Source: Candidatus Melainabacteria bacterium RIFCSPLOWO2_02_FULL_35_15 (GTDB lineage Bacteria; Cyanobacteriota; Vampirovibrionia; 2-02-FULL-35-15). Taken from it: a stretch of 61,535 nt of DNA. The stretch lies in the NCBI GenBank assembly GCA_001784585.1, contig MFRN01000043.1, positions 1-61,535 of the forward strand, in the 5' to 3' direction. The position numbers and the translations under genes are program-made. Below, in pieces: positions 17,326 through 33,907 of this stretch (the stretch's first letter is position 1; every line of letters begins with the position of its first letter). The notes under the pieces were generated by a model. The model had not been told where the DNA came from. It did no database searches and saw nothing but the letters and a program-made list of their open reading frames with translations.

Positions 17326-17418
17326 CTCACGTTTGATACTTAACAATTAATTGTTTAAGTATAATTGGTTACTGCCTAGCTATGTTACTAAGTCTCATCT
17401 GACTAACTTACAAAGAAA

Positions 17419-17531
17419 GGTTTTGCCTGGTTTATCCAGCAAAACCTGGAAAATGATACAAAAGGCAGACTGCGAACACTTTGCAAAGCCCGACAAGCGA
17501 GGTACGAAGCAAGGAGGGCGGTAGGCAAAAA
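17419..17531 (+). repeat. 113-nt inverted-repeat element, left copy
   Basis: The element starts with a hairpin: GGTTTTGCCTGG (17419-17430), loop TTTAT, CCAGCAAAACC (17436-17446), 11 pairs with one bulge. A roughly 30-nt linker follows, then a GC-rich segment (17476-17531). The GC-rich segment is identical to the reverse complement of 33743-33797 except for one inserted G. The linker is about 75% identical between copies, and the hairpin stems differ but keep their pairing. It sits between the convergent genes at 16489 and 17553 and marks the left border of the island. Confidence 0.85.
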
Positions 17532-17552: not shown

Positions 17553-20021
17553 TTACACAGCATGACAAATGGTCGTATATCGTTTTGAAGTATTGTGAGC
17601 AGCTCTTCTTTTTGTCATTCCTGCATAAAGCTCAGGGAAACTAGTTTTTAAATTATCCGGAGCTTTTTCTAAATATTCATCATACTCATAATAATTGCCA
17701 TCTTCATTAACTACGTAAATTGTTTTTTCCGGATCTTTTGCACCATCTTTAGCCTGACCGCCACTTGTTCTTCGTATTTCCTGAGTAAATTCCTCTCCAT
17801 TTGATTCTTTTACTGCATCGTATGCCATTTTTAAAAGCTCAGATTCTGTATATTTTATTAAATCACTGCGTTTAATTCCTCGTTTTTGAAGTCCATATTG
17901 AAGAATATATTGTGGTGCCATAACAAATGGGTGTTTGTTTGTATCGTTATGATGAAGTACAGAAAGATCATAATACATAGCTGCTACAGCATGTGCGCCA
18001 GCAGGTGTAAATCCAGCTTTTATTTTTCCACTTCTGTCTTTAAAGTATCTGACTTGCTTTGTAAGCCAGAGAGCCTCTTTATTTAATTTCCATTTTGGAA
18101 AACCAGGAGTCCTGGACTGCTCACCAGTTCTGCAATACTCTAAATAATCTCCCATAATTTTTACAATAGTATAATCAGCATTTAATTTCCCCAGTGTTTG
18201 ACAAATCTTTTCAATTTCTTTGATGCCAAGATGCTTTAACAATATTTTATGAATCTCAGAGTCTTTATCTTTAACAATGTCCAGTGAACTCTCAAAGTTT
18301 TTAAAATCCAGAAGTATCTGTTCTGCGCCATGGCTAAATCTTAAATGTCCATCATCATGAAACTCCCCAGCTAAGGGGAGTGAGTAAGTATTACTTTCAA
18401 CAAGATTTTTTATATCAGGATCAACATTTTCTTTATTTGAATAATAATCATATAAAAAATGCTGAGTTCGGAGCAAATGAGTAAAATCTCTTCTCTCGTG
18501 AAGACTCCTAATATACCTGTATCGATCTTTGCGATCTGCATTAAATGGAACAAGTATACCAGCCTGAGTTACAGTTCCCTGATATTTTTTTATTTCAGTA
18601 GCATCCAAATCTTGTAATATTACTTTTAGCTTTTCATCTGCCAGACTATCTATTACTTCCTGATATCTGGGTGAAAGGGTAGCTTCTCTGTGCTCATTTT
18701 CAAATTCTTTTATAAAGGCATAAGCTGACTCTACCGCTTTAGCTTTGTCAATTTTGTATTCAAGAATTTCTTCTTCTTCTGGTCCGAGTTTGTCTGTTCT
18801 GATAAAATTTTGTGCGGTTTGAGCACCAGCACCAAAAGATGCAAAGCTTACCCCAAGTGCTTCTGTCGCCCTTGCCAAGTCATATACTTTTTCACTTATG
18901 CCAAGCGGCATTATTGCAAGCATTGCTTTGCTTGTCCCTAAGACTAAAGCTGCAAGACGTCTAAACCATCCTTCTACTCTCATAGCTGTGTTTTCACCAG
19001 GCAGCCTGGAACCATAATTATTTGCTCTTTTTAATACTTTGTTCCCGTCTCTAAATAAAGCAACAAGATTTGCACCGGAAAAAAGAGCATAAGGAATATA
19101 AGCAAGAGATTTTATTTTTTCAGGGACTTCATGCCCCAAAAAAGAAGCAACTTTTGAAATTATCCCTACCCCGAATAAACCACCGCCAGCTACACCTAAT
19201 CCACCACCAGCTGCCTGAAATGCACGAGCAGGCTCTTCCTTAAAAATTAAATCCATGTTTGTAATATTTTTAAAGAAACTAAAAATTCCCTGCTCGTAGA
19301 GTGATAACCACTTTAAACCTGGTAAATGACTAGTAAATGATTTATGAACAGATGAAACAGTTTCATTTTCTCTCCTTCTTACATCACTCATTCCCATTGA
19401 TTGAGCTCCATCAAACAATGAAACCAGTCCAAGAGCAATCGGATCTTTTAAATCCATAAATGTGCTAACAGCAGACATTCCAAGCGCTCCGGCAAACCAT
19501 TCCTTACTGTCCTGAGCAAGTCCTGTTAAGCCGCCAGTACCACCAAAAATAAAGTATGATTTTTTGAGACTGCTATATCCTGCATCAGTATTCCCGCCAG
19601 TTAAGCTGCTAAAAAGTATTTTAATTCCTGAAGAGACTAAAGACATCCCTGAAACAACCGTACCAATTAACGCTCCACCTGTTTCCATTGCTCTTATTTG
19701 TCTTTGTCTTTTTAATTTGTTTTTATCTACTATTTCATGCCTTATTACTTCAATACCATAGTCTTTATATTGCTTGGCTAATTTCTTTAAATCTGAATAC
19801 TCATGCTTACCTTCATTTTTTAACTTATCAAGATTTAATCTGGAAGCAGCTTCTGGAGGCAGAGCATCAATATTTACACAAGGAGGTAGTAATTCTTCTC
19901 CATATTGAAATCTAATTCCTATTTGTTGAGGGGCCTGTGATTTATCTTTTGGTTTTGTTTGGGCAGTATAAGGTTGTGGATCTGAAAAATTTTGACAAGA
20001 TGATTGTACTGCCTTAGGCAT
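17553..20021 (-). CDS. Large membrane protein with C-terminal HD phosphohydrolase domain
   Basis: An 822-residue protein with no close family that I recognise. Residues 1-100 are polar. About 112-410 hold several hydrophobic, glycine-rich stretches (near 115-140, 155-205, 268-325 and 355-400) that look membrane-embedded. The C-terminal half contains an HD-type metal site resembling SAMHD1/dGTPase-like enzymes: His515 (FTHLLR), His555-Asp556 (FHDDGH, then RFSHGAEQ) and Asp625 (GDYLEYCR). That implies phosphohydrolysis of a nucleotide or similar substrate at the membrane. The start has an AGGGA sequence 4 bp upstream. The substrate cannot be told from sequence. Confidence 0.75.
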   Translation of the reverse strand: MPKAVQSSCQNFSDPQPYTAQTKPKDKSQAPQQIGIRFQYGEELLPPCVNIDALPPEAASRLNLDKLKNEGKHEYSDLKKLAKQYKDYGIEVIRHEIVDKNKLKRQRQIRAMETGGALIGTVVSGMSLVSSGIKILFSSLTGGNTDAGYSSLKKSYFIFGGTGGLTGLAQDSKEWFAGALGMSAVSTFMDLKDPIALGLVSLFDGAQSMGMSDVRRRENETVSSVHKSFTSHLPGLKWLSLYEQGIFSFFKNITNMDLIFKEEPARAFQAAGGGLGVAGGGLFGVGIISKVASFLGHEVPEKIKSLAYIPYALFSGANLVALFRDGNKVLKRANNYGSRLPGENTAMRVEGWFRRLAALVLGTSKAMLAIMPLGISEKVYDLARATEALGVSFASFGAGAQTAQNFIRTDKLGPEEEEILEYKIDKAKAVESAYAFIKEFENEHREATLSPRYQEVIDSLADEKLKVILQDLDATEIKKYQGTVTQAGILVPFNADRKDRYRYIRSLHERRDFTHLLRTQHFLYDYYSNKENVDPDIKNLVESNTYSLPLAGEFHDDGHLRFSHGAEQILLDFKNFESSLDIVKDKDSEIHKILLKHLGIKEIEKICQTLGKLNADYTIVKIMGDYLEYCRTGEQSRTPGFPKWKLNKEALWLTKQVRYFKDRSGKIKAGFTPAGAHAVAAMYYDLSVLHHNDTNKHPFVMAPQYILQYGLQKRGIKRSDLIKYTESELLKMAYDAVKESNGEEFTQEIRRTSGGQAKDGAKDPEKTIYVVNEDGNYYEYDEYLEKAPDNLKTSFPELYAGMTKRRAAHNTSKRYTTICHAV

Positions 20022-20230
20022 TATCCCTGCTTTTTCTTATACCTACTATATTTAGCGTAAATACTCATGATTGTTTTAATTAAATACACTATATATTAGA
20101 CTATATTTAAAGTTTCTAGTCAATGAAAGACATATTGTAACTTTTATATTTTTTACCACGTACAATTAGTGACAAAAGGCTTACCTGTGCTGTTAGAATG
20201 AGTCTTGTTTTTTATCGCAGTAGGAACTAT

Positions 20231-20629
20231 ATGAAATTTTTAATCTGTTTTTTGCTGGCTTTAACATGTTTGACATTTAATACTGGTGTATTTAACAGCA
20301 GCACACTTCGGTATACTTCCTGTGCATTTGCTCAGACAAATTTATCTCCTCTCAATATGCTGATTTTTGATATAAGAGATGTCAAAAAACTCATTGAAGA
20401 AGGAGATAATAAATTAGCAATAACTATCCTAAAAAGTGCAGACAAAAATGTTCGTAAAGTAAAAGAGTTTAGTGCTAAAACAAAAAAAATTACCAGTACA
20501 AGAATTAAAAAGGGCATAGCTCTTTTAAAACAAAATAAAAACGACGAGGCTCTAGCTTTAATACAAACAGCAATTGACAGTCTAATAGAAGCAGGATTTG
20601 CCAAACCAAGTGATTTTGAATCGATATAA
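20231..20629 (+). CDS. Small secreted helical-repeat protein
   Basis: From the ATG at 20231 the product begins MKFLICFLLALTCLTF, a clear signal peptide with a probable cleavage site after SCAFA. The mature part (about 95 aa) is helical and TPR-like: LIEEGDNKLAITILKSADK, then ALLKQNKNDEALALIQTAI. An in-frame ATG at 20198 would add 11 polar residues before the signal peptide and is less likely. It resembles in plan the secreted protein at 33203. Function unknown. Confidence 0.7.
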   Translation: MKFLICFLLALTCLTFNTGVFNSSTLRYTSCAFAQTNLSPLNMLIFDIRDVKKLIEEGDNKLAITILKSADKNVRKVKEFSAKTKKITSTRIKKGIALLKQNKNDEALALIQTAIDSLIEAGFAKPSDFESI

Positions 20630-20640
20630 AGAGACCCACC

Positions 20641-21552
20641 CTAAGGGGTAAATCTTGTACAGGTGTGAAGGATTTGATCGTCTGTATACCTGTTTTCAAA
20701 TTTTATTTTATAATTCCCGTCTTTAAAAGGACAAGAGCTTAATTTTTTTCCAATGTCTATTTTTGGTGCTGCGCCCCAATCTACAACCACGCTTTTATTT
20801 TTTTTCAAAATATGATTTATTAAAGCAATTAAAATAAGATCATATTCTTCCGCTTCTATATGACTGTCTGCAATATGCCGATCGTTCATGTCTATGGAAT
20901 ATTCATAAAATGCTGTTCTCTCAATCATAAGGCCATCTGGATAAGGCACACCAAGAAAATCTACTCCGACTATTACCAATGCCTTACCTTTATCCAAATC
21001 ATTATTAATTGCAGATGAATCGTTATCTCTTAGTTCATATTTGTTTGCTTTAAATCCTCTTATTATTTTTGTATCAATGCTGCTTATCTCTCCTGTTGTA
21101 CTATCTTCTGTCTGCCAGTCATCAAGAAGTGCAGAACTCGTATTTTCACTACCGGTAAAAAAAGAAGGAGATTCCAACAGGCTGTAATCTTTCTTATTGT
21201 TAGGAAGATTCTGTTGCATCTTAGCCATTTTTACAAAGACAAATGAATGTAATTTAGGAAACCTAAAAAAGTTTTCCCATACAGATTTATCCATAGTACT
21301 GCACTCGATTTTTACAGGAATAAGATTAGGCAATATCTTTTCAAGTTCACCAGCAATAAAATCTCCACCATTATTAGTTCTTCCACAATCAATCTCTACC
21401 ATTTGTTCTTCATTCAAAGGATTAATTACTGCATCCCTGATAAATGACTTGTTAAGTACATTATTTGGATATATTATCTCCCTTCTTTTGGGATCCAATG
21501 TAACTAAGGTAGTATAAAGTCCCTCATCAACTGTATAAGGTTTAATATGCAT
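20641..21552 (-). CDS. Hypothetical protein, 303 aa
   Basis: I do not recognise a family. The protein starts MHIKPYTVDEG. It has a mixed alpha/beta pattern with segments such as GKALVIVGVDFLG and EEYDLILIALINHILKK, and no signal peptide or membrane helix. It is convergent with the small secreted protein, the ends being 11 bp apart. The short M-x-I-x start resembles other island proteins (MLTIN, MLRIN, MRIN), but this similarity is slight. Confidence 0.65.
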   Translation of the reverse strand: MHIKPYTVDEGLYTTLVTLDPKRREIIYPNNVLNKSFIRDAVINPLNEEQMVEIDCGRTNNGGDFIAGELEKILPNLIPVKIECSTMDKSVWENFFRFPKLHSFVFVKMAKMQQNLPNNKKDYSLLESPSFFTGSENTSSALLDDWQTEDSTTGEISSIDTKIIRGFKANKYELRDNDSSAINNDLDKGKALVIVGVDFLGVPYPDGLMIERTAFYEYSIDMNDRHIADSHIEAEEYDLILIALINHILKKNKSVVVDWGAAPKIDIGKKLSSCPFKDGNYKIKFENRYTDDQILHTCTRFTP

Positions 21553-21875
21553 TATTATTTCTCTGATTAATAATTATTCTACACGATCGTCTATAAAATT
21601 TTCACGCAATAATCTTCTTACCTTTTCAATACAATTCTTTTATTGAGTTTTAGATATAGGCTTGCACATATGCTTAAAACATAATTCTCTAATTCTTTAT
21701 CAGGACACATATGTCATCTAACCAAACTGGCACATCGGTTTTAAATATGCTAACTTTGCGCAAGTCCTATAGAAGTCAAATTTCTGTTCCTGAATTGGGA
21801 ATAGCTGCATAAAATATAGTTTTATTATAATAGTGCTAAAATACTTTCTAAGTTTCTAAAAAGGAGATATAAATT
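21553..21875. other. Intergenic stretch between divergent genes
   Basis: A 323-bp AT-rich gap. It contains copy 2 of the 27-bp repeat (21739-21765), a TATAAT at 21826-21831 without a well-placed -35, and the AAGGAG ribosome-binding site of the 111-aa gene. I see no gene or RNA in it. Confidence 0.5.
21739..21765 (+). repeat. 27-bp direct repeat, copy 2
   Basis: Same 27-mer as 13971-13997 with one mismatch, starting GTTTTAAATATGCTAACTTT. It lies 110 bp upstream of the 111-aa gene. The matching position upstream of same-strand genes in both cases hints at a regulatory site. Confidence 0.6.
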
Positions 21876-22211
21876 ATGCCATTAAGAGTAGAGTATACAC
21901 CGACAAGGGAAGAAAAAAGAATTGGAAATATTGCTGGAATGTTTAATAATAATCCTCCCTACAAGAAAAGACTTGAAGTCTGTAATGAACTCAAAGTTCT
22001 ATTACCACAACTTGGCTTTCCGGTTGTTGATGTAGTTGCTCATAAGCAGGATCCAAGAGTAATTATTGTAATTAGTAGAGAAAATGCAGACAATAGTGAA
22101 TTTTTAAAAGGTTTAATCAATGCAGTTTCAAGTCAAGAGGCATCATCTGGAAATCCAGTTAAATACAGAGATGCTGTACTTGCAATTCATGGATATCCTG
22201 AACGTGAATAA
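21876..22211 (+). CDS. Small hypothetical protein, 111 aa
   Basis: Soluble acidic/basic mixed protein starting MPLRVEYTPTREEKR, with no recognised domain. The strongest ribosome-binding site of the island (AAGGAG, 9 bp before the ATG) suggests it is well translated. A beta strand-like VVDVVAHKQDPRVIIVIS segment lies in the middle. A 12-bp hairpin 88 bp downstream could terminate its transcript. Confidence 0.65.
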   Translation: MPLRVEYTPTREEKRIGNIAGMFNNNPPYKKRLEVCNELKVLLPQLGFPVVDVVAHKQDPRVIIVISRENADNSEFLKGLINAVSSQEASSGNPVKYRDAVLAIHGYPERE

Positions 22212-22259
22212 CTTTTAAGAGTTAATCCAACTACTTTTACTTTAAAGCAAAAAAATCAA

Positions 22260-22420
22260 TCCAGGATTTGAACCTGAATTTTTAGTTAAGCGCCAAGCAA
22301 AATGTGTTCTTCATCAGAACACATTTTACGCCGTTAAGAAAAAGCGAGTTGAGCATTCGTGCGAAACGAGCGTTATAAAGTACAAATCCTGAAATTTGCC
22401 CCATCCTGGACAGATTTGAA
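22260..22420. other. Structured non-coding stretch with strong hairpin and tRNA-like T-arm
   Basis: A perfect 12-bp stem (AAAATGTGTTCT 22299-22310, AGAACACATTTT 22316-22327, loop TCATC) lies inside longer inverted segments. AGGATTTG near 22263 pairs with CAAATCCT near 22383, and TCCAGGAT at 22260 pairs with ATCCTGGA near 22413. On the minus strand, AGGTTCAAATCCT mimics a tRNA T-arm, but no acceptor, D-arm or anticodon arm can be built around it. It could be a terminator, a structured RNA or a decayed repeat. Confidence 0.45.
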
Positions 22421-22472
22421 TGAGTTTTTGGAGAGGGCCGCTTGATAAGAGGAGTTACAGAAGAAAGTTGGT

Positions 22473-22811
22473 TTATTTGCTTTTTCTGGCTATTAAAGCA
22501 AATTGATAGAAATATTTTGAAAAGTATTCAAGAGTTGTATTGTAAAGCAAGCTACCAAAAAAACTGTCACATAAGATTTCACGAACTCTACACAATTCTT
22601 TTAATCTTGCCCCATGCCAACGTTGACCACTAATGGTTAGATCAAGCAAGTCTAATGCTCTATAAAAAGCATTGGTTGCGTATTCTTCATTACCTTTTTT
22701 TCTCCAAGAAATAATTCTATCAACGTCACTACCTACATTACCTAGCTGTTCTGCAAGCGTCATTTTATACCACCTGCCTGATTCTTTTAGGTTTTTATAA
22801 AGATCTCTCAT
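22473..22811 (-). CDS. All-helical partner of a DUF5674-type pair
   Basis: A 112-residue helical protein. It contains MRDLYKNLKESGRWYKM and ALDLLDLTISGQRWHGARLKELCRVREILCD, patterns I know from a widespread uncharacterised bacterial family often found beside DUF5674. Its ATG overlaps the DUF5674 stop (ATGA), so the two are translationally coupled. The helical bundle recalls HEPN-type proteins, and the tight two-gene layout recalls toxin-antitoxin modules. That role is inferred, not shown. Confidence 0.75.
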   Translation of the reverse strand: MRDLYKNLKESGRWYKMTLAEQLGNVGSDVDRIISWRKKGNEEYATNAFYRALDLLDLTISGQRWHGARLKELCRVREILCDSFFGSLLYNTTLEYFSKYFYQFALIARKSK

Positions 22812-23158
22812 TGTTTTATTAAAAAGTTAATAATGTCAATAATTTTTTTCTGTATGGCAGGATCTTCAACTTCTCGTGACCTGTTGTTTTGTCTTGAACG
22901 AAGATTAATCATGGAATCAAACTCGATCCAGTTGTTTCTGTCTTTAGCCGGATAAATATTAATACCCCATAAATTATCCTGTATGGAACCTTCTTCAAGG
23001 AGGAGTTTTTCTTCATCAGCATGCATGTAGCCACCAATTGCAAAAATTTGTAATTTAATATCTACTACAGCCTTAACTAAATCACTGTCATTTTTATTTG
23101 CAATATTTTTTAAGGCTTCTAGTGTAATAGGCTCTTTAACCAAGATTATTTCATCCAT
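22808..23158 (-). CDS. DUF5674 family protein
   Basis: From the ATG at 23158 (MDEIILVKEPIT) the protein has the DUF5674 blocks KAVVDIKLQIFAIGGYMHADEE, LWGINIYP, WIEFDSMIN and RSREVEDP. The open frame runs 24 codons further up, but that part does not match the family. It overlaps the helical partner gene by four bases. The function of the family is unknown; the coupled small pair is compatible with a toxin-antitoxin system. Confidence 0.8.
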   Translation of the reverse strand: MDEIILVKEPITLEALKNIANKNDSDLVKAVVDIKLQIFAIGGYMHADEEKLLLEEGSIQDNLWGINIYPAKDRNNWIEFDSMINLRSRQNNRSREVEDPAIQKKIIDIINFLIKQ

Positions 23159-23215
23159 ATTAAAGTATTTTACTACTTCGACTGAACAAATTACAATTCT
23201 CTTTTGAAAAAAGGA

Positions 23216-23450
23216 ATAAATAGAAAACACATTTCTTTTATCATTCCTCGTTATTTAAGAATCATAAAAGATTTGCAAGAATTAAGATTTGCTCCTCTTG
23301 TTTCTCTTGCTAAAACTTTTGAATCTTGGCAAGAAGAAATACTTAGAATGCTAAGGTTTTGATTGGTACGACCTAGTGCATCACGTTAGAAATAAAATTA
23401 AAGAGTTTAATGGCTATGTTCACATACCTGATCTCTCTAAAGTAGCTTAA
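23216..23450 (+). pseudogene. Decayed transposase-like remnant
   Basis: A 420-bp gap holds a broken frame. Frame one (23216-23362) reads a helical segment containing PLVSLAKTFESWQEEILRML. It stops and continues in another frame (23364-23450) with HVRNKIKEFNGYVHIPDL. The first part resembles the end of ISL3-type transposases, where an R/L-A-K-T-x-x-x-W-x-E-E-I-L pattern precedes the last catalytic region. There is no start codon or intact frame. The assignment is tentative. The rest of the gap up to 23651 shows nothing clear. Confidence 0.3.
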
Positions 23451-23651
23451 TTTTAGCACCGTGCTTGACATTATTTATTGCAGTGTCAGATTTGCTTTAT
23501 CAGTGCTTATGAAATAAGGGCTGGCCAAAACAAAAGCAATTTGCTATAAGAATAAGTAAGCCTGATTGTATATTTGGACTTTTGAAAACTCAAATAATTT
23601 AGCCATATCCCAATTTATTTAGGCAATTTTGCACAAAGGCTTGTTTGGAGT

Positions 23652-24281
23652 ATGGCTGAAAGTACTCTAAAAGCCCCTGTCCCTGTCAAAACTTTAGGAT
23701 CCCTTTTTATGAAAATAAAAGTTGAAAAGTGCAGACAGGTCAGAATTTATCCCCTTATAAAAGGGCTTTTAAGTCAAGGTAATGCAAGGATTGAATGGAA
23801 TGATGGTTTTATAATTAATTTAAAACTTCATCGAGAAGGTAAAAGAGATTATATTCATTTTACCTATATTACTTCCTCAGAAGGTGGAGATAAAAAACTT
23901 TGTAATTATAAAGTAAGTCTTACAAGAACTGAATGTCCTACCGGATTCAGATATTGGCTTGCTTGTCCTCTAGTAAATAAAGAAAACAAAGCATGTGGTA
24001 ACCGTGTAGGTATCTTATACATGCCGCCAAAAAGGAATTATTTTGGCTGTAGAAGGTGCCATAAATTAATTTATCAAAGACAATGCCTAAGTGGATTGGA
24101 TAAAAAATACGGAAAGCTTATTAGCTTTTGTGATCTGGAACAGGAAGAAAAATTAATTAAAAGAAAAGTATATGCCGGATTTTTTACTCAGAGATATATG
24201 AAACACCTGAACAAAGTTAAAAAGAATAATGAGAGATTCGGAAAGAGGGTTGAGGACTTGAATAGCAGTCTCCTCTCTTAG
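23652..24281 (+). CDS. Zinc-ribbon protein, function unknown
   Basis: A 209-residue basic protein. The C-terminal half has a probable zinc ribbon: Cys105 (LACPL), Cys115 (KACGNRV), then YMPPKRNYFGCRRCHKLIY with Cys133 and Cys136. This pattern recurs in uncharacterised proteins often met on mobile elements and plasmids. The N-terminal half is predicted beta-rich (IEWNDGFIINLKLH). The next Met (residue 20) is an alternative start. It is a plausible nucleic-acid binder, but nothing more specific can be said. Confidence 0.7.
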   Translation: MAESTLKAPVPVKTLGSLFMKIKVEKCRQVRIYPLIKGLLSQGNARIEWNDGFIINLKLHREGKRDYIHFTYITSSEGGDKKLCNYKVSLTRTECPTGFRYWLACPLVNKENKACGNRVGILYMPPKRNYFGCRRCHKLIYQRQCLSGLDKKYGKLISFCDLEQEEKLIKRKVYAGFFTQRYMKHLNKVKKNNERFGKRVEDLNSSLLS

Positions 24282-24355: not shown

Positions 24356-27130
24356 TTAACTCGCTGATTTCCTAACTTGTTCAAATGCAGCAATTATATT
24401 TTCTTGGGTTAATACTTTTGGAGTATGGTCTTTAATAGCGGACCAAATTTGTGTATTAGTTAAGCCATCTGATCTTAATGCTAATTCTGTATAATCAAGG
24501 CTGCTATCCAAGCTTTTTTCTTGCATTGCTTCTATTAAAGTACTTACGTAACCTTCTATTAATTTAACTTTCTGTTTTATTTTTTCACGTAATTCTTTTC
24601 TGCCAACATTTCTTGCTTTTAAATGATTAATCATATCGTTGACAGTTACTTGTTCTTCACTACTTTTATTTGCAACCTCAGTAAATGACGTTTCTATTTG
24701 TGCAGGAGGATAATCGCTTATTTTTGATCCGATTTCAGCATAATCAGAAGGCGGCTGGATCTTTCTTGAATCTATGTAAGGCTGTAGAAAATGCCTAGCT
24801 AAAGCTTCTCCTTGGCTTAAGTTATACAATTTGTGAAACGAAAATATTCTGTGATCTATTCTTTTAGCTCTTGTAGCATTACAGCTAACATGTTTATATA
24901 ATTCTTGCTCAGCATCTGTACTGTTCCCTTCTTTGTCAATTAACTCTATATCTACATCTATAGTAGAAGGAGCATTTGTTGTCATTATAACAACAACATT
25001 AGATGCTCCTCTTGTATTTCTAAAACGTTGAAGTGTAGATAAAAATGCCTCTGTTAACTTTCCCTCGTTTTCAGTAGGTTTTCTTATGTAATTATCATCA
25101 ATTGCTCTTGGCACTATCAGTCCTTCTACTTCATCCAAAAGTAATACACATGGAGCATTTGTTTTAACTGAAACAAAAAATTCTCCAAGATTTATTTTCC
25201 TACCACTTGGCATAACTACAAGGATATTGCCCTTTTCATGTTCGATCATCTCTGGGCTAAGAACAATTAACGGGAGAGCCATTTGGTTTGCTAAAGCTTC
25301 AGCAAAAGAAGATTTGCCCGTACCTTTAGGCCCAGAGCAAAGCCAACCACCATTTACCTTTTGTGTAGAGTTATTGTCTAAGTTATCTACAACATTTTTT
25401 ATAACTCTATCTTTCAAATCATAAATATCAACATATCCTTCATCACCAAAATGTCGAGAAAGTTTATGATAAAGAGTCAATGCTTGTCCTGGCAGAGTTC
25501 GCATTGAGGGACTTATAAAAAATGTGTAATCTCTTACAGCAAAGCTATCATATCTATGTACTACAGCCCCACATGCTCTTAAAATCCTTTCTTTGTTTTC
25601 TTCATTTAAAAGATCTTTAAATAAAGCAGGTGAGTTTTCACCAATTGTAACTTTCTTATCAACTAACATGTTTAAACACTTATAGAAAAACTCTAGCTTT
25701 CTATAATTTTGAAGTGTTAGCTTGCCTCCTGATTTATCTGAGTCCAGATTCATAAGCTCCCAAATCTTATTAAATATTTGATTTAAGTCCTCTTTAGAAC
25801 AGCACTCATCCTTTAAGAAAAGCTCCCTTAATTGGTGCAGGTCATCATCTAGTCTATTTTCATACGTATTAGTAAACGGCGCATTATATCTAGCTTCGTT
25901 ACCTTTATATTCAGCTGCTAAAGTCTTGAAACATTCCTTAAGTTCATCTTCTGACATCTGTGATAATTCACAACCCCACTCTTTAAACTTACTAAAGATG
26001 CGACTGTATAACTTATCCTCTTCATATTGTACTTTTACTTCATTACTCCATAAAAGAGGAGCAATTTGAGTAGCGTGAGTTAGCACTTCCTGTAATTTCC
26101 CTCTTGCTGAAGGATCGTATTTAGTCTTATCAATAGTACCCAATTTACTTTCTAACTTATAATTTAAAACTAAAGCATCTCTTAGTTCTGTTACTTTATC
26201 TCTCAAGACAGTAGGAGCCCCACTTGTCAAATATAAAGGGTCATTTTTTGAAGCCTTTGTTTCGATTCCTAAATCCGATGGTTCAATAAGTGTATCTAGC
26301 ATTGTTTCATACATTTTGAATCTATAGTTTCCACTCCTTACATCTGGGTTTGGAACTTTAAACTCTCTAATAGGGATTTTCCAGTTTAATACTAAGACCC
26401 TTCTCATATGTAACTTAGCCTCTTCATCAACCAGGTAATGTTCTTCTCCAAGATATTCAATAAATTTTTCATAGAAAGGATTTTCTTTTTCTACTTGAAC
26501 TTTTACATCACTTCTTTGGTAAAACCCTTCTAAGGCAGCAAAAAGTCCTCTAACAACTTGTTTCCTTGCTCTTAAAAGATCACTGCTAGGGAGATCTTTT
26601 GGAGCAGAGAGAATTTTTCTTAAACTGGACTCGATTTTATTTGTAGTATTCTGAGGATTTTTCATGTCCCCGTTTTGAATTTTATCTATAGCTTTAGCTC
26701 TATCAGAATAATCCATGTTTATAAGATCATCATTCCAATACCCTTCTTCATTCAAAGCTTGAATAGCAACTTTACTTGCATCTTCTACTTCTGATTTAGG
26801 ACTTTCTGCAGTAAAGAAATCTAGAATCTTTTTAGCTACCCAACCTGTTCCCCCGGCTATGGCACCAAAGAGAAAAGCTTCTCCTACACCTCCTCCAAAC
26901 ATAGCAGCTTGATTTTCAATGCCAAGCTCCTTTTTTGTCATTTGGATAGCTTCAATTCTTTGTCTTAAAAAGGAATTGTGTAAAGTTGATTTTGTAGCTT
27001 GCTCAATTTCAAGCTCACTAGTAACAACAGGCAAGTGTTTAACTTTAACTTCACTAGAATTAGTCTTCCCATTATTTTCAATTGGTTTTTTCTTGATTGA
27101 GTTAAATTCAATTTTATTTACTTTGTCCAT
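24356..27130 (-). CDS. Large AAA+ ATPase, paralogue 1 (arginine-containing)
   Basis: A 924-residue protein (start MDKVNKIEF at 27130; the frame opens 2 codons earlier with TTG). A long N-terminal region holds one hydrophobic segment (about 80-100) and the motif RIEAIQMTKKELGIEN near residue 58, shared with paralogue 2. The AAA+ core lies at about 545-780: Walker A GPKGTGKSS (600-608), Walker B VLLLDEVEG (662-670), sensor 1 TTNAPS, then ATRAKRIDHR with three arginines at the position of the second region of homology. It is divergent from the HEAT/AAA+ operon. Probably a membrane-associated remodelling ATPase; its substrate is unknown. Confidence 0.85.
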   Translation of the reverse strand: MDKVNKIEFNSIKKKPIENNGKTNSSEVKVKHLPVVTSELEIEQATKSTLHNSFLRQRIEAIQMTKKELGIENQAAMFGGGVGEAFLFGAIAGGTGWVAKKILDFFTAESPKSEVEDASKVAIQALNEEGYWNDDLINMDYSDRAKAIDKIQNGDMKNPQNTTNKIESSLRKILSAPKDLPSSDLLRARKQVVRGLFAALEGFYQRSDVKVQVEKENPFYEKFIEYLGEEHYLVDEEAKLHMRRVLVLNWKIPIREFKVPNPDVRSGNYRFKMYETMLDTLIEPSDLGIETKASKNDPLYLTSGAPTVLRDKVTELRDALVLNYKLESKLGTIDKTKYDPSARGKLQEVLTHATQIAPLLWSNEVKVQYEEDKLYSRIFSKFKEWGCELSQMSEDELKECFKTLAAEYKGNEARYNAPFTNTYENRLDDDLHQLRELFLKDECCSKEDLNQIFNKIWELMNLDSDKSGGKLTLQNYRKLEFFYKCLNMLVDKKVTIGENSPALFKDLLNEENKERILRACGAVVHRYDSFAVRDYTFFISPSMRTLPGQALTLYHKLSRHFGDEGYVDIYDLKDRVIKNVVDNLDNNSTQKVNGGWLCSGPKGTGKSSFAEALANQMALPLIVLSPEMIEHEKGNILVVMPSGRKINLGEFFVSVKTNAPCVLLLDEVEGLIVPRAIDDNYIRKPTENEGKLTEAFLSTLQRFRNTRGASNVVVIMTTNAPSTIDVDIELIDKEGNSTDAEQELYKHVSCNATRAKRIDHRIFSFHKLYNLSQGEALARHFLQPYIDSRKIQPPSDYAEIGSKISDYPPAQIETSFTEVANKSSEEQVTVNDMINHLKARNVGRKELREKIKQKVKLIEGYVSTLIEAMQEKSLDSSLDYTELALRSDGLTNTQIWSAIKDHTPKVLTQENIIAAFEQVRKSAS

Positions 27131-27304
27131 AAACAAGTTTCTTAAATAGGTTTAAAAAACTATACTGCAATGCTGACTAGACAGTCAATAAGTTAAAAGG
27201 ATTATTTATAACTATTAAAAAATGGCTTGTTTTAGAGCTCCTTACAGCAAGTCAGTAAGGTTAAGAAAATACCAATATTTTTTTGCCTAATTTAATGAAC
27301 TATA

Positions 27305-27324
27305 GTTAAGATGTCCATCTTAAC
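27305..27324. promoter_or_regulatory. 20-bp palindrome between divergent island operons
   Basis: GTTAAGATG-TC-CATCTTAAC is a perfect palindrome with a 2-bp centre. It lies 175 bp from the start of AAA+ paralogue 1 and 70 bp before the HEAT gene. Position and symmetry fit an operator for a dimeric regulator serving both sides. No T-run follows, so it is not a typical terminator. Confidence 0.5.
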
Positions 27325-27393
27325 CTTTATCGCTTAGTATCGAATTAGATTCTAGTGTTTTATTTAAGTCCTTTATTAAGATAGAAAATAAAA

Positions 27394-28830
27394 ATGCTTA
27401 CAATAAACAATGCAACGAAAGTAGTAAAGCTTCCCTACCGGCCCATAGGCTTCAAGCCTCAGGAAGGTAAAGAGGTTACTGGAGCAGACATTATAGATTG
27501 GCTAAAAAAAGAAAGTCGTGGCACCATTCAATGCTTACCTCATTTTGCTGTTTGGGCAGGCATTGGAACGATAGCTAGTGCAATACTAGGTTTTATAGGC
27601 ATAAAGCAAGACAGCAAGCTTTGTAAGTGGATTGGAGGAATTTTAGGATTAGTTGGGATTGCTGCTAGCGGCTTTGGGGTTTATCTGGCAAGAGCTATCA
27701 GCCAGATTCCCGAGAAAGAAAAAAAAGCTAAAGAAGAACAAGAAGAGAAATTAAAAAATGTTTATCAGGGATTATCTGGTAATGTAGAAATCTCTGAAGA
27801 AAATACAAAGACTCGTATTCAAATTCTTAATGATGAGTCTTTGAAATCAGGTGTTCGGGAGGAAGCATTAGGGTATCTACTATCGTCAAAACATAAAGAT
27901 GAAAGACCTTTTAATGCAGTAATTAATTTTATAAATGATGTCAAGCAAAATCTCTCTCTGCGTCAAGCTGCTATGCAATCATTAAGTGGCTCAAATGAAT
28001 TACAAAGAGAAAAAAAAGAAGAAATATTATTAGAGCGATTAAAAGATATAAATGAAAAACAAGATACTCGCAGAACAGCACTTAATTTATTACGTGATAT
28101 TGGGGATAAAGATACAATTACTTCTCTAGAAAAGGTAAAACAATCTGGAGCTATCACTGATCTGGATGCCGAAATAGAAACAATAATTGAATATATTAAT
28201 GATCGCATATCAGGTAAATTTGAAAAACAAAAATCACAGCTAGAAAAATTTGAAAGTGCTAAAACTGATGAAGAAAAATTATCACAAAGCATAAATTACA
28301 TAAAAGATAAAACATTACTTCCAGAGTGTAGAAAAAAAGTAATAATTGACATAATGTTTATTATAAGTAGACAGGAGCAGCCTGATGTAATCCAGTGTTT
28401 AATTGATTCTGTAATAGATAAGACTGATAATTATGATGTTAGGGCAGCTGCAATCATAATTTTAAAAGAAGCAAGTAAAGGAAATCAAGATGAAAAACTC
28501 CTTCAATTTTTAAGAACTTGTGTATCTGATAAGTCGGAGCATTCATATCTTCGCTGCAAAGCAATAGAAGCTTTAAGCAAATTTGAGAAACAAAAAGCTA
28601 CTAGGTTTCTCTTAGCATGTTTGAATGATATAAGTGATAATGAAGCTATACTGTCAACAGTTGTTAATGAGCTTGGGAAAAGTGGAGATGAAAGCATAAT
28701 AGAAAGATTAGAAGCTTTTAAGAAATCAGTTTTTTCTCAAGATAAGGCGAGTTTATCGCATGACACTTCAAAAGCCATAGATAAAATAAAAGAAAGAGTT
28801 TCTAAAGCTGGTGGAGATTCTAAAAATTAA
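27394..28830 (+). CDS. Membrane-anchored HEAT-repeat protein
   Basis: A 478-residue protein starting MLTINNATKVVKLPYRP. Two membrane helices at about 51-70 and 79-98 form a hairpin. A charged linker and a long alpha-solenoid of HEAT-like repeats follow (about 135-460; units such as SGVREEALGYLLSS, LRQAAMQSLSGSNELQ, VRAAAIIILKEAS, LRCKAIEALSKFE). Such repeats usually bind proteins. It is the first gene of a same-strand operon with the 223-aa and 1026-aa genes (gaps of 18 and 24 bp), so it may anchor the ATPases to the membrane. Confidence 0.8.
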   Translation: MLTINNATKVVKLPYRPIGFKPQEGKEVTGADIIDWLKKESRGTIQCLPHFAVWAGIGTIASAILGFIGIKQDSKLCKWIGGILGLVGIAASGFGVYLARAISQIPEKEKKAKEEQEEKLKNVYQGLSGNVEISEENTKTRIQILNDESLKSGVREEALGYLLSSKHKDERPFNAVINFINDVKQNLSLRQAAMQSLSGSNELQREKKEEILLERLKDINEKQDTRRTALNLLRDIGDKDTITSLEKVKQSGAITDLDAEIETIIEYINDRISGKFEKQKSQLEKFESAKTDEEKLSQSINYIKDKTLLPECRKKVIIDIMFIISRQEQPDVIQCLIDSVIDKTDNYDVRAAAIIILKEASKGNQDEKLLQFLRTCVSDKSEHSYLRCKAIEALSKFEKQKATRFLLACLNDISDNEAILSTVVNELGKSGDESIIERLEAFKKSVFSQDKASLSHDTSKAIDKIKERVSKAGGDSKN

Positions 28831-28848
28831 CCTTATTTTTGAAATGCC

Positions 28849-29520
28849 ATGTTGAGAATAAATACACCATTAACTGTGACCTTAGTTTCAAATGGTATAT
28901 TGGCTAAACGAAATCCAAAAGCAGTCTTCGTCAAAAAACACAATCTACAAGTTAACAAAGATGTTGTTGAAGCTGAAACAGAACAAGTTGCCAAACCAAG
29001 TGCAAAAGATTGGCTATTTCTTATCGAAGGTCATAAAAAATATCACACAGTTGAAAATCTTTTTTTAGATAATTTTGTAGAAGAGCTTGATATTAAAACT
29101 GAAGATCCAATAGTAAGCCCTTTTACTTCAGAAGTCGCTCAAGCAGCTTCACTGGAAAAAATAACAGCAGCACTTTCTGTTTTAACAATGGATTATTTAG
29201 ATTTGATCGCTGACAATGACATAGAAAAATTTGATGCAAAGACATTAGAAATAATGTTTGAGCAAAGCTTGAACGTCGTAGCTCAAGCTTTTAGGGTAAG
29301 CCCTAAAGGGCTTAAAAAAGAGTTCTTAAAATTGAAATGGCGTAACAAAGAAAAACTGGAACAACAAGTTGTTGCTCTTTCAGGGAAAAGGAAACAGTTA
29401 ATCAATGAATCTAACTCTCAGGGCAAGGTTAAGGTAGAAGAAATCTTACGCAGAAGTGTAGAGCCTAATCTCTTTATAATGAGTGGTATTGAACATGCTA
29501 CAATTTTTAATCAAAAATAA
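28849..29520 (+). CDS. Hypothetical helical protein of the AAA+ cassette
   Basis: A 223-residue protein starting MLRINTPLTVTLVSNGIL. I do not recognise the family. It is mostly predicted helix, with an acidic middle (VEELDIKTEDP) and a basic C-terminal third (LKKEFLKLKWRNKEKLEQQ, SGKRKQLI). No membrane segment is seen. Tight placement between the HEAT gene and AAA+ paralogue 2 makes a role as subunit or adaptor plausible. Confidence 0.7.
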   Translation: MLRINTPLTVTLVSNGILAKRNPKAVFVKKHNLQVNKDVVEAETEQVAKPSAKDWLFLIEGHKKYHTVENLFLDNFVEELDIKTEDPIVSPFTSEVAQAASLEKITAALSVLTMDYLDLIADNDIEKFDAKTLEIMFEQSLNVVAQAFRVSPKGLKKEFLKLKWRNKEKLEQQVVALSGKRKQLINESNSQGKVKVEEILRRSVEPNLFIMSGIEHATIFNQK

Positions 29521-29544
29521 AGATCAAATCAAAATTAAAACCAA

Positions 29545-32500
29545 ATGAGAATCAATGAGATAAAAAACAGACAAGTTCAAGACTCTGTACCTATTGATTA
29601 TTTACATGCACTGCCAAACGAAAAGATTGATTGTGGACAGAATTTAAATGCAGTTAGCGCAAGAGAAAACAGTAGCTTGAAAGAACAAATATTAGCTATT
29701 CAGAAAGCAAAGACCTTGTTGGGTATAGAAAATCTAGCTGCTGCACAATTAAGATTCAATGCGGAAACGCTTTTAGCCTTAGATTGTGCATTGATTCAAG
29801 AATCATACAAGAGTATACTTGGCAGCAAGGCACAAGTCTCAAACGCTGTGCGTGTAATGTACAATGTCGCTATCCAGTTAAGCGATTATGAAATGGGAAG
29901 ATATGTTCTTTTTGCTAAAGAAAATAAAATCGTTGAAATTGGTGGAAGGCAATATCACTATAACTTATCTTCTGAATCAAATTGTGGAATAGTCTCAATT
30001 ATCAATGGCAAATTTAAGCCTAGTTGGTGGTTTGAATCACAGGGACTCGATGAATATACAATAAACTCTGCTGCAAAAACATTAGGGTACATTTTGCGAA
30101 AAGGTGGGAACTTATTAGATGAAAAGAATGAATCTTCTTTAATAAGAATATTGTTAACTTCATCAATAAAAGATTTACGTGAAGCAGGTGCTTATACGGT
30201 GCGGGATACTTATAAACATGGCTGGAGGAAAAGAATTCAAGATACAGGTCTTATCTCAGCTTTTAAAAAAGAAGAAGATGATTACTTGAGGACAGTAATG
30301 GCAGAGGCAATTGCAAAGGCAGATCCAAAATCTATTTTAAAGGAACATTCAATAGAAGGAACAATTGGAAAATTTCGTCCATTGACTAGATTACTTAAAA
30401 AGGATGAAGATATAGGAGTAAAGCGGTATTTAGCAATGGGAGTAGCAGACCTTCTAGCTGCTGAAAGAGGTAAAGGTGCTTATTATAGTGAGTTTCATGA
30501 AAGAGTTGAACTTAGTACTCAAGACAAAATTGATTCTCTTGGCTATGTTTTAACAATTGTAGATCAGGTTTACAAAAAGGACTCTCTTGTCGAAAGAGAA
30601 AAAGAGTTCCTGTATTATTCTTTATCAGGGCTTGCATTATTGGTAGATGATGAAGCAATTAACTCAGTTAGGTTAGAAGGAAGACCTGAGCAAACTTCCG
30701 AATATGAGAAATCAGTTCTTAAGTTAAATCAAATTGATCTTTTCCGATTCTTAAAAGTTGTTTGTGTTGACTATGCATCTTATGACAAAGCAAAAAGTAA
30801 GGAAAGTTCTCTATCTATTTTTGAAGCGGGCTGCAATGTTTTTCAAAAAACGCTACTCTTACAAGCAAAAGCCTGTGGGAAACCGCTACTATATTATTGT
30901 GAATTGAAAAGAAGAATCGATTTGATGATCGAAGGTATTGAAGCAGAAAGATATTCTGGATTATCTGAAAATATGCGTAATCGCATATATAAGGATAGAA
31001 ACTCAGAAGGAAGTTTTGAACCAGAAGCAAGACTGCGTAATGCTTCATGTAAAATTAACGATGCAATTGGCAATACAGTAGAATCTTTTCTCATTAATAC
31101 TAGGGCTAGAAAAACTATTGAAAAACTTAAAGGGAAAAGTAATGTCCCAGTTACACAAATTAAATGGGGCAATAATTCAGATTTTAATTTAGTATTTGGC
31201 AACTTACTTCTGTTTCTTGAAAAGGAGAAAGATTCTTTTAAAAATTCCATCTTAGATCTAATCGAAGAGCTTAATCAGAATGGATTAGTTTTAGATGAAA
31301 CAGGAGAGATTACATTACAAAATGCTTTAGACAAACCTAACGAAGCCAAGTTAAAAAGTAGTTTAGCCAGTACTGTTTATTCAAAAGTTAATGTATTGAT
31401 CAAAGATTCAAGTAATGCAAATACACGTGATATGGATAGGTTAATTGCTTTTTTGAATGAGCTGGACCCTTCTCGTAAGACTACTTCAACTATAAGTGAT
31501 ATCTTTATACATCCGAAAATTGACACTCCTCATGGAAAAGCATTGGTTCTTTATAGAAGACTTCCAGGGATTAGGTCTTTTAAAGATTATTTTGGAATGC
31601 CTGATTTGAAAGAAAAAGCTGTAGGAATGGCAGCTCAGTGCATTAGTAATGGCTTTTCTAAAGGTATGTTACTTTCTGGCCCTCGCGGTACAGGAAAATC
31701 TGTTTTTGCAGAAGTGCTTGCAAGTGAGCTAGCATTGCCGCTTATTGTTGTAGAAAAAATAGAAGATAAATTTTTATTTCCATGTGAGGATGGAAAAAAT
31801 GTGACATGTTCAGTAGATGATTACTTTCAAAGATTGAGAATATTAGCACCATGTGTTTTATTAATTGATGAAATCGATGGCATAATTCCAGCAAAAATGA
31901 ATGACACCGATTCAAGGTTCCTAGCTAAACTAAAAGATCTACAAAAATCTGATGTTCCAATTGTAGTAATTGGAACTACAAATGCTCCCGGTGTAAAAGC
32001 CGTAAGGAGCTTAGATATTAATGAGGATGGATCTTCAAGCGAGGCTAACAAATTGCTCTCTGAAATAGTTAATCCAGAATGTTTTGAAATTCTTCAACCA
32101 TATTACAGCTTTCATCAAAGAGAAACAGGCGTGGGTTTTTCCAGAGAATATTTGAGTCATTTGTCGGCACAAGGAAATATAATTGGTGAGCTTGACCTAG
32201 AGCTCGTTTCAAGATTTTCAAGTGGGCTACTTCCAGCAATAATAGATACTACCTTCACTGCTGTCTTAGCTTCTGGAGAAAGATGTATACCATCTGAGAG
32301 AGCAATAGGCATAATTAGAAATTTAAAATTAAGCAGTGACGAAATTCATGAACATGCAAAACGTATAGAAAATCTAATAGGAACTTTAGTTTCAATTGGA
32401 GGAAAAACCGTTAGTGGAGAATTAGATTATAAAGAGCTAGCCCTTGCTGGTGAAAGGATCCCAATAAGTGAAATCGCAACTTTATTAAATACAATTCAAT

Positions 32501-32625
32501 CTCCCTTAACACAGAATAGTTTATTAGAACTGTTTGAAAAAGATAATAAAGTAAGAATGGAATCCTACAAACAGCATATCGCTTTAAAAGAATTAATTTT
32601 GAAAATGAAAAAAAAATTAAAATAA
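29545..32625 (+). CDS. Large AAA+ ATPase, paralogue 2 (arginine-lacking)
   Basis: A 1026-residue protein. Near residue 44 it shares the motif SLKEQILAIQKAKTLLGIEN with paralogue 1. About 195-310 contain HEAT-like helices (LREAGAYTVRDTY, LRTVMAEAIAKADP). The AAA+ core has Walker A GPRGTGKSV (712-720), Walker B VLLIDEIDG (771-779) and sensor 1 TTNAPG (811-816). It also has the same D-x-x-E-D/G-x-S-S-x-E segment after it as the paralogue. Where paralogue 1 has ATRAKRIDHRIFSFH, this protein has PECFEILQPYYSFH, so the arginines are gone. Last gene of the operon. Confidence 0.85.
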   Translation: MRINEIKNRQVQDSVPIDYLHALPNEKIDCGQNLNAVSARENSSLKEQILAIQKAKTLLGIENLAAAQLRFNAETLLALDCALIQESYKSILGSKAQVSNAVRVMYNVAIQLSDYEMGRYVLFAKENKIVEIGGRQYHYNLSSESNCGIVSIINGKFKPSWWFESQGLDEYTINSAAKTLGYILRKGGNLLDEKNESSLIRILLTSSIKDLREAGAYTVRDTYKHGWRKRIQDTGLISAFKKEEDDYLRTVMAEAIAKADPKSILKEHSIEGTIGKFRPLTRLLKKDEDIGVKRYLAMGVADLLAAERGKGAYYSEFHERVELSTQDKIDSLGYVLTIVDQVYKKDSLVEREKEFLYYSLSGLALLVDDEAINSVRLEGRPEQTSEYEKSVLKLNQIDLFRFLKVVCVDYASYDKAKSKESSLSIFEAGCNVFQKTLLLQAKACGKPLLYYCELKRRIDLMIEGIEAERYSGLSENMRNRIYKDRNSEGSFEPEARLRNASCKINDAIGNTVESFLINTRARKTIEKLKGKSNVPVTQIKWGNNSDFNLVFGNLLLFLEKEKDSFKNSILDLIEELNQNGLVLDETGEITLQNALDKPNEAKLKSSLASTVYSKVNVLIKDSSNANTRDMDRLIAFLNELDPSRKTTSTISDIFIHPKIDTPHGKALVLYRRLPGIRSFKDYFGMPDLKEKAVGMAAQCISNGFSKGMLLSGPRGTGKSVFAEVLASELALPLIVVEKIEDKFLFPCEDGKNVTCSVDDYFQRLRILAPCVLLIDEIDGIIPAKMNDTDSRFLAKLKDLQKSDVPIVVIGTTNAPGVKAVRSLDINEDGSSSEANKLLSEIVNPECFEILQPYYSFHQRETGVGFSREYLSHLSAQGNIIGELDLELVSRFSSGLLPAIIDTTFTAVLASGERCIPSERAIGIIRNLKLSSDEIHEHAKRIENLIGTLVSIGGKTVSGELDYKELALAGERIPISEIATLLNTIQSPLTQNSLLELFEKDNKVRMESYKQHIALKELILKMKKKLK

Positions 32626-32901: not shown

Positions 32902-32974
32902 TACCCCCAACCGGATTTGAACCGGTGTTACCGCCGTGAAAGGGCGATGTCCTAGGCCACTAGACGATGAGGGC
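32902..32974 (-). tRNA. tRNA-Glu (anticodon TTC)
   Basis: The minus strand gives a full cloverleaf of 73 nt: acceptor GCCCTCA pairing with TGGGGGT (with G-T pairs), anticodon loop CTTTCAC on a TCGCC/GGCGG stem, and T-arm ACCGG-TTCAAAT-CCGGT. CCA is not encoded. It points leftwards, into the island, near its right border; tRNA genes are frequent insertion points for such regions. Confidence 0.95.
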
Positions 32975-33742: not shown

Positions 33743-33855
33743 TTTTTGCCTACCGCCCTCCTTGCTTCGTACCTCGCTTGTCGGGCTTTGCAAAGTGCTT
33801 CGGAGCTGCCTCTTGGCACATTATCCAGATTTTTCCGAATAAATCGGATAAAATC
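33743..33855 (-). repeat. 113-nt inverted-repeat element, right copy
   Basis: Reverse complement of the element at 17419-17531. The hairpin at 33828-33855 reads on the minus strand GATTTTATCCGA-TTTAT-TCGGAAAAATC: 11 pairs with one bulge, like the other copy, but with different bases. The GC-rich half (33743-33797) is identical to the left copy apart from one base. It lies 52 bp beyond the end of the leftward ABC permease gene and marks the right border of the island. Confidence 0.85.
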
Positions 33856-33907
33856 TTTTCTCATAAGTAGTTTGCTCTGATACTTTACCCTGGCTAAGCA
33901 GCAACCA

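Follow-up and report, generated by a model that had tools for sequence, protein, structure and literature searches.

A bacterial four-gene cassette encoding two paralogous AAA ATPases with reciprocally conserved catalytic residues

Most known asymmetric AAA rings come from eukaryotes, with Torsin-LAP1, Pex1/Pex6, and clamp loaders as examples. In clamp loaders (RFC and the DnaX complex), subunits with an ATP site but no finger occur alongside subunits that have a finger but no working ATP site. For Torsin, a membrane-anchored partner supplies the arginine to a finger-less ATPase, and an alternating heterohexamer, (LAP1-Torsin)3, has been proposed (PMC4358337). Pex1 and Pex6 are a paralogous AAA pair with unequal ATPase roles that acts at membranes (PMC4490564). 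Here, we describe a cassette for two AAA ATPases (AAA1 and AAA2), a membrane HEAT-repeat protein, and a protein designated HEL, encoded by Candidatus Melainabacteria bacterium RIFCSPLOWO2_02_FULL_35_15. The window, that is, the whole analyzed stretch of 61,535 nucleotides, is contig MFRN01000043.1 (C43) of this 1.94-Mb genome (G000). The open reading frames of the four genes were found where a first-pass annotation of the window had placed them, within positions 24356 to 32625. The cassette family appears to be undescribed, and cis-acting ATPase residues were conserved in AAA2 and trans-acting residues in AAA1.

The cassette resembles Torsin with LAP1/LULL1 in combining an ATPase that lacks the finger with a finger donor and a link to the membrane. 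As with Torsin and LAP1, the finger-less ATPase retains an intact cis site and is accompanied by a finger-bearing partner, a likeness of arrangement and not of common descent. In contrast to LAP1, the finger donor of the cassette is a full AAA paralog in which the Walker motifs are usually kept, and the membrane anchor sits on a third protein; the cassette ATPases are of the classic AAA (Cdc48/FtsH-like) clade, whereas Torsin belongs to the ClpB-D2-like group. The likeness to Pex1/Pex6 lies in two paralogous AAA proteins at a membrane with presumptively unequal ATPase roles. Pex1/Pex6 is, however, a double ring (D1 and D2) with arginines and the pore-loop aromatic in both D2 domains, whereas each cassette ATPase has only one AAA domain and AAA2 lacks the arginines. 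Torsin-LAP1 and Pex1/Pex6 are analogs, and neither is a family match. Clamp loaders differ in belonging to another AAA+ clade, in being pentameric, and in their link to DNA, and their sequence relation to the cassette is limited to the AAA core. FtsH and Cdc48 share with AAA1 the AAA core and arginines of the second region of homology (SRH) type. Unlike them, AAA1 and AAA2 have no peptidase domain (the FtsH zinc metallopeptidase domain was not matched, and FtsH models matched the AAA core only, far below cut-off), unrelated N-domains, an insertion between sensor 1 and the arginines, a C-terminal small domain additional to the FtsH/Cdc48 plan, and no recognizable aromatic pore loop. Weak AAA-core similarity (1e-6 to 1e-7) to IetAS and TRIP13-type defense ATPases was found with PADLOC; both families fail because coverage and partner genes do not fit. 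For IetAS, only the AAA core matched (NCBIfam IetA score of 25 to 31 against a cut-off of 510), with no subtilisin (IetS) match in the cassette; for TRIP13/HORMA (CBASS-like) systems, again only the core matched (E value of 1.7e-6), with no HORMA or CD-NTase match among the cassette proteins.

Reciprocal residues in AAA1 and AAA2

AAA1 and AAA2 copies were compared column by column with FtsH of the window genome as the reference. Seven AAA1-type and five AAA2 copies were counted; a short AAA1 fragment in a related genome (G008, L026) that lacks the first arginine was left out of the seven. The arginine asymmetry reported in the first-pass annotation was real: TRAKRIDHR of AAA1 aligned with LRPGRFDR of FtsH, and the corresponding PECFEILQPY of AAA2 had a 3-residue deletion and no arginine. 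Nor was the asymmetry peculiar to one gene pair, since across genera both SRH arginines were present in all AAA1-type copies (7/7) and in no AAA2 copy (0/5). Opposite LLRPGRFDR of FtsH, the AAA1 copies read ATRAKRIDH, AIRRKRVDY, ALRPGRFDH, VMREGRSDK, and TFREKRIDF, and the Walker-broken AAA1-type copies read AIRGGRVDQ and GTRIGRINH; the AAA2 copies read CF---EILQP, FF---TILQP, VF---GFFEP, CF---EVMDG, and CL---KTMQP. A third arginine, after Walker B, had the same distribution (7/7 versus 0/5).

The residues of the ATP pocket itself showed the opposite pattern. All five AAA2 copies kept the G, G, and K of Walker A, the D and E of Walker B, and the T and N of sensor 1, while the catalytic Walker B glutamate was found in three of the seven AAA1 copies (changed to aspartate in two and lost in two) and the preceding aspartate in five. 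This reciprocity, which held among copies just 30 to 40% identical (33 to 38% among the AAA2 copies), is the selection pattern expected of a ring that pairs AAA2 pockets with AAA1 fingers.

In two AAA1-type proteins, one in a second cassette of the window genome and one in G005, Walker A and Walker B were both broken, yet both arginines were kept. In the former (contig C24, L008), AAA1' has a broken Walker A (GPPEANKL) and Walker B (FFGDAD) and retains R-G-G-R, and the adjoining AAA2' has intact Walker motifs and no fingers. A dead AAA1 pocket would cost nothing in a strictly mixed ring, because that pocket faces a finger-less AAA2. AAA2' is without its N-domain and lies at the contig end, with a possible frameshift upstream. 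The end of C24 (L008, 15254 to 15332) is an exact 79-nucleotide match to the HEL gene of the window (29298 to 29376); this match has the look of a k-mer overlap from the assembly or of recombination between two cassette copies. In G005, two AAA1-like proteins (L023, 8676 to 9557 and 15837 to 18233) have lost the Walker motifs and the first small domain; one retains both arginines, and the other does not.

The description of AAA1 and AAA2 as paralogous AAA+ ATPases was borne out for the C-terminal ~430 to 480 residues, which aligned in a profile comparison with an E value of 1e-45 and 27% identity, and for an N-terminal motif, but not for the large middle domains, which were not detectably related. 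The N-terminal motif was present in both proteins as described (EAIQMTKKELGIENQAA in AAA1 and LAIQKAKTLLGIENLAA in AAA2). In eight genomes, a profile of this motif gave strong matches (E ≤ 3e-13) only to AAA1 and AAA2 proteins, with the next best match at E = 0.12, and its interpretation as a general targeting tag was rejected on these grounds. The best PDB profile matches of both ATPases were NVL, Cdc48, and p97, in the AAA core only. The window AAA1 and AAA2 both have the Walker A, Walker B, and sensor 1 elements of the classic AAA clade, and its two SRH arginines are found in AAA1 and not in AAA2. In the tree, AAA1 (support of 99/96) and AAA2 (91/87) formed separate clades, and thus their split is older than the divergence of these genera. 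By sequence, AAA1 and AAA2 are ancient paralogs of the classic AAA clade, with AAA2 the derived paralog by the tree.

The whole four-gene block was found in 4/11 genomes of one bacterial family, representing four genera. Besides the window genome, these are G004 (L022), G008 (L025), and G007 (L024, with AAA2 interrupted by the contig end), which have the same four genes in the same order. None of AAA1, AAA2, and HEL was found in 6/11 family genomes, and among the genomes searched, AAA2 and HEL occurred only in those bearing AAA1. A cassette-type HEAT protein (E < 1e-50) tracked the cassette, and weaker matches to its anchor were common. Extra, partly decayed cassette copies were found in G000 and G008. 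When 382 genomes of the class were searched with profiles, strong AAA1, AAA2, and HEL matches were confined to this family; outside it, HEL gave one marginal match (6.8e-4). HEL, the only query run against a phylum sample of 386 genomes, matched marginally once there (3.5e-4), in an apparent pentapeptide-repeat-type protein. One scan of genome contigs gave a generic AAA protein only. A phage or plasmid origin was rejected, as no relatives were found in IMG/VR (AAA1 single sequence or HEL alignment), in phages (AAA2 query), or in plasmids (HEL query).

The HEAT protein, HEL, and an upstream element

The second gene encodes a membrane HEAT-repeat protein, as first described, with a HEAT_2 match (2e-19) and two transmembrane segments by hydropathy (residues 52 to 70 and 80 to 98). 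Both segments lie in the first ~105 residues (window 27394 to 27708). This anchor recurs before HEAT repeats, before alpha/beta hydrolases, and, weakly (1.3e-5), before a J-domain (L084, L086, L088, L092, L094, and L096), and because it recurs in other proteins of these genomes, it is regarded as a reusable membrane module. The HEAT part diverges faster than the anchor (23 to 28% versus 32 to 69% identity).

HEL had no Pfam or PHROGs match and no significant match in NCBIfam or among PDB sequences. It was called helical by eye, and the single-sequence model was too poor to confirm this call. In G004, an 847-residue fusion protein comprises HEL (residues 1 to 226), a match to the AAA2 N-domain (326 to 469), HEAT repeats, and a C-terminal tail, and contact between HEL and AAA2 is argued from this fusion. 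The tail looks coiled-coil by eye.

Upstream of the HEAT gene lies CTTAACCTnnnTnGnTTAnTATCnnATTA, the core of which was exact in four cassettes and had 1 mismatch in a fifth copy (L028). At up to 3 mismatches, 0.11 occurrences per window are expected by chance. The element is probably a dedicated promoter or operator.

A proposed mixed ring and its alternatives

On balance, we favor a model in which AAA1 and AAA2 build one mixed ring, with the AAA1 arginines completing the AAA2 ATP site and with HEL and membrane docking as further parts. The following steps are envisaged: (i) AAA2 would bring a conserved ATP-hydrolyzing pocket and no trans-acting arginines; (ii) AAA1 would lend its arginines to the adjacent AAA2 pocket; (iii) the AAA1 pocket facing AAA2 would receive no finger and be free to drift or die; (iv) the shared helix-like N-terminal motif and the paired C-terminal small domains may aid AAA1-AAA2 pairing; (v) HEL probably binds the AAA2 N-domain; and (vi) the machine or its substrate is probably held at the membrane by the two-segment HEAT protein. 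There, the machine would use ATP to assemble or take apart a protein complex. More tentatively, as a reading somewhat less likely than not, the cassette as a whole may be a bacterial two-ATPase machine whose active site is split between paralogs, with AAA1 sometimes an ATP-dead finger donor, the anchored HEAT protein serving in docking, and HEL acting as an adaptor.

The first-pass annotation had also proposed a mixed ring. Co-occurrence, the conserved arginine loss in AAA2 alongside a strict cis site, and AAA1 arginines that outlast a dead pocket all speak for it; a lone AAA1 in G005 does not. That genome (96% complete) has an AAA1 with intact Walker motifs and arginines, without AAA2 or HEL, although its gene lies divergently beside that of the short AAA1-like protein of G005 with broken Walker motifs and retained arginines. 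Of the observations that the first-pass annotation named as refuting, homologs that occur singly with full arginines were thus seen in part. Recruitment by a membrane solenoid, a further part of that proposal, is plausible, with an anchor module shared by other proteins and an existing fusion of HEL to the AAA2 N-domain. The label of remodeling system is unproven, the pore-loop aromatic typical of threading not being recognizable. What the sequences show is the gene block, its co-occurrence, the reciprocal residues, the HEL fusion, and the anchor module; from these we infer a physical hetero-oligomer, its docking, and a remodeling activity.

Several points besides the G005 AAA1 weigh against the mixed ring. 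The genomes are few and of one family, and, given shared ancestry, the copies cannot be counted as independent trials. The structure models (predicted local distance difference test [pLDDT] of 36 to 37) were too poor to use and gave no predicted contact or complex. The complementary losses in the second G000 cassette count for less, because that cassette is rearranged and possibly in decay. Finally, in the FtsH alignment, the aromatic-hydrophobic pore loop 1 was not recognizable in AAA1 or AAA2, which argues against ordinary threading. At the position of FtsH MFVG, both have a longer segment, probably hairpin-like, with strands in a low-confidence model; simple threading is thus not the best guess.

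The cassette may serve in conflict with phages or a host, although we regard this as doubtful. It would then act against phages, or in some other conflict, as an AAA machine docked on the membrane, with the HEAT protein as a fast-evolving sensor. Such a reading is about what the cassette does, and the mixed-ring mechanism could hold alongside it. It accords with the patchy presence in the family, the gain or loss beside tRNA-Glu relative to same-genus genomes, the extra decayed copies, the faster divergence of the HEAT part, and the Fic-like gene and AbiE-like pair seen by eye close to related loci. However, the PADLOC matches were to generic AAA and HEAT only, the cassette has no nuclease, protease, or toxin domain, its base composition is the genome average, and plasmids and phages gave none with the queries tried.

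Separate rings, with AAA1 a homohexameric ATPase and AAA2 a slow ATP-binding switch, either as its own ring or as a monomer, that HEL or a different partner might activate, would make the cooperation functional only, and we consider this unlikely. AAA1 may indeed also act alone, because G005 carries a complete AAA1 without AAA2 or HEL; AAA1 of the window is likewise Walker- and arginine-complete, and HEL, given the G004 fusion, could be the AAA2 partner. The Walker B glutamate in 5/5 AAA2 copies is, however, unexpected for a pure switch, and arginines kept by AAA1 copies that drop Walker residues are unexpected for a homohexamer. It is very improbable that AAA2 is a degenerating duplicate with no required activity whose arginines were lost by simple decay: the AAA2 copies are divergent and one is without its N-terminal half, but all cis catalytic residues are kept, four genera share the gene block, and every copy shows the same alteration of the arginine region.

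If the mixed ring is correct, a compact bacterial pair with one catalytic site divided between paralogs, in copies that range from complete through E-to-D to a dead pocket with living fingers as successive stages, would let the evolution of obligate heteromeric rings be tested. The split-site signature is conserved and testable, and with this locus a poorly studied lineage gains an apparently undescribed membrane-associated cassette as well as a reusable anchor domain.

Features and genomic setting

Table 1. Positions of cassette features in the window
Feature	Position	Strand	Remarks
AAA1 ATPase	24356..27136	-	926 aa from TTG, true start likely the ATG two codons past it; Pfam AAA 2.1e-16; orthologs in G004, G007, G008, G005, second copy in G000
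AAA1 arginine fingers TRAKRIDHR	24848..24874	-	R756 and R759; R-x-x-R in 7/7 AAA1-type copies
Insertion of ~25 residues, sensor 1 to arginine fingers (D-x-x-G-x-S)	24875..24967	-	Common to AAA1 and AAA2; absent from FtsH
AAA1 Walker B CVLLLDEVEG	25121..25150	-	Catalytic E kept in 3/7 AAA1 copies
AAA1 Walker A GPKGTGKSS	25307..25333	-	
AAA1 N-terminal motif EAIQMTKKELGIENQAA	26903..26953	-	Residues 62-78
Divergent intergenic region, AAA1/HEAT	27137..27393	.	257 nt between starts
cis element CTTAACCTnnnTnGnTTAnTATCnnATTA	27319..27347	+	29 nt, 70-76 nt upstream of HEAT start in all four cassettes
Membrane HEAT protein	27394..28830	+	~105-aa two-transmembrane-segment anchor module and HEAT repeats; HEAT_2 2e-19
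HEL	28849..29520	+	Fused to AAA2 N-domain-like region in G004
AAA2 ATPase	29545..32625	+	1026 aa; Pfam AAA 2.5e-15; orthologs exist
AAA2 N-terminal motif LAIQKAKTLLGIENLAA	29692..29742	+	Residues 50-66
AAA2 Walker A GPRGTGKSV	31678..31704	+	GxxGxGKS in 5/5 AAA2
AAA2 Walker B CVLLIDEIDG	31852..31881	+	D-E in 5/5 AAA2
AAA2 site of arginine-finger deletion, PECFEILQPY	32074..32103	+	Either arginine kept in 0/5 AAA2
tRNA-Glu(TTC)	32902..32974	-	Conserved neighbor at edge of cassette's variable spot

The cassette lies between a fast-diverging gene for an 822-residue protein and tRNA-Glu(TTC). This interval spans <0.7 kb in the same-genus genomes G001 and G002 and ~13 kb in the window, where it contains the cassette and several small genes. 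The system is accessory, gained and lost. No integrase was seen in its genomic setting, and a horizontal origin by composition was rejected, as GC content and GC content at third codon positions (GC3) equal those of the genome.

The 822-residue protein (17553 to 20021) has an HDxGH-like motif by eye and no Pfam match; it is 26 to 29% identical to its positional counterparts, compared with 74 to 86% for neighboring genes. Between it and the cassette (20198 to 24281) lie genes for a DUF5674 protein, a 209-residue protein with a possible zinc ribbon, and several unknowns, which are part of the variable interval by tRNA-Glu and have no counterparts in the G001 and G002 stretches. A flanking inverted repeat (17406 to 17531 and 33743 to 33868) was rejected as island ends. 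It is a dispersed intergenic element of about 116 to 126 nucleotides, with no Rfam family match, of which ~13 good copies, 78 to 87% identical, occur genome-wide.

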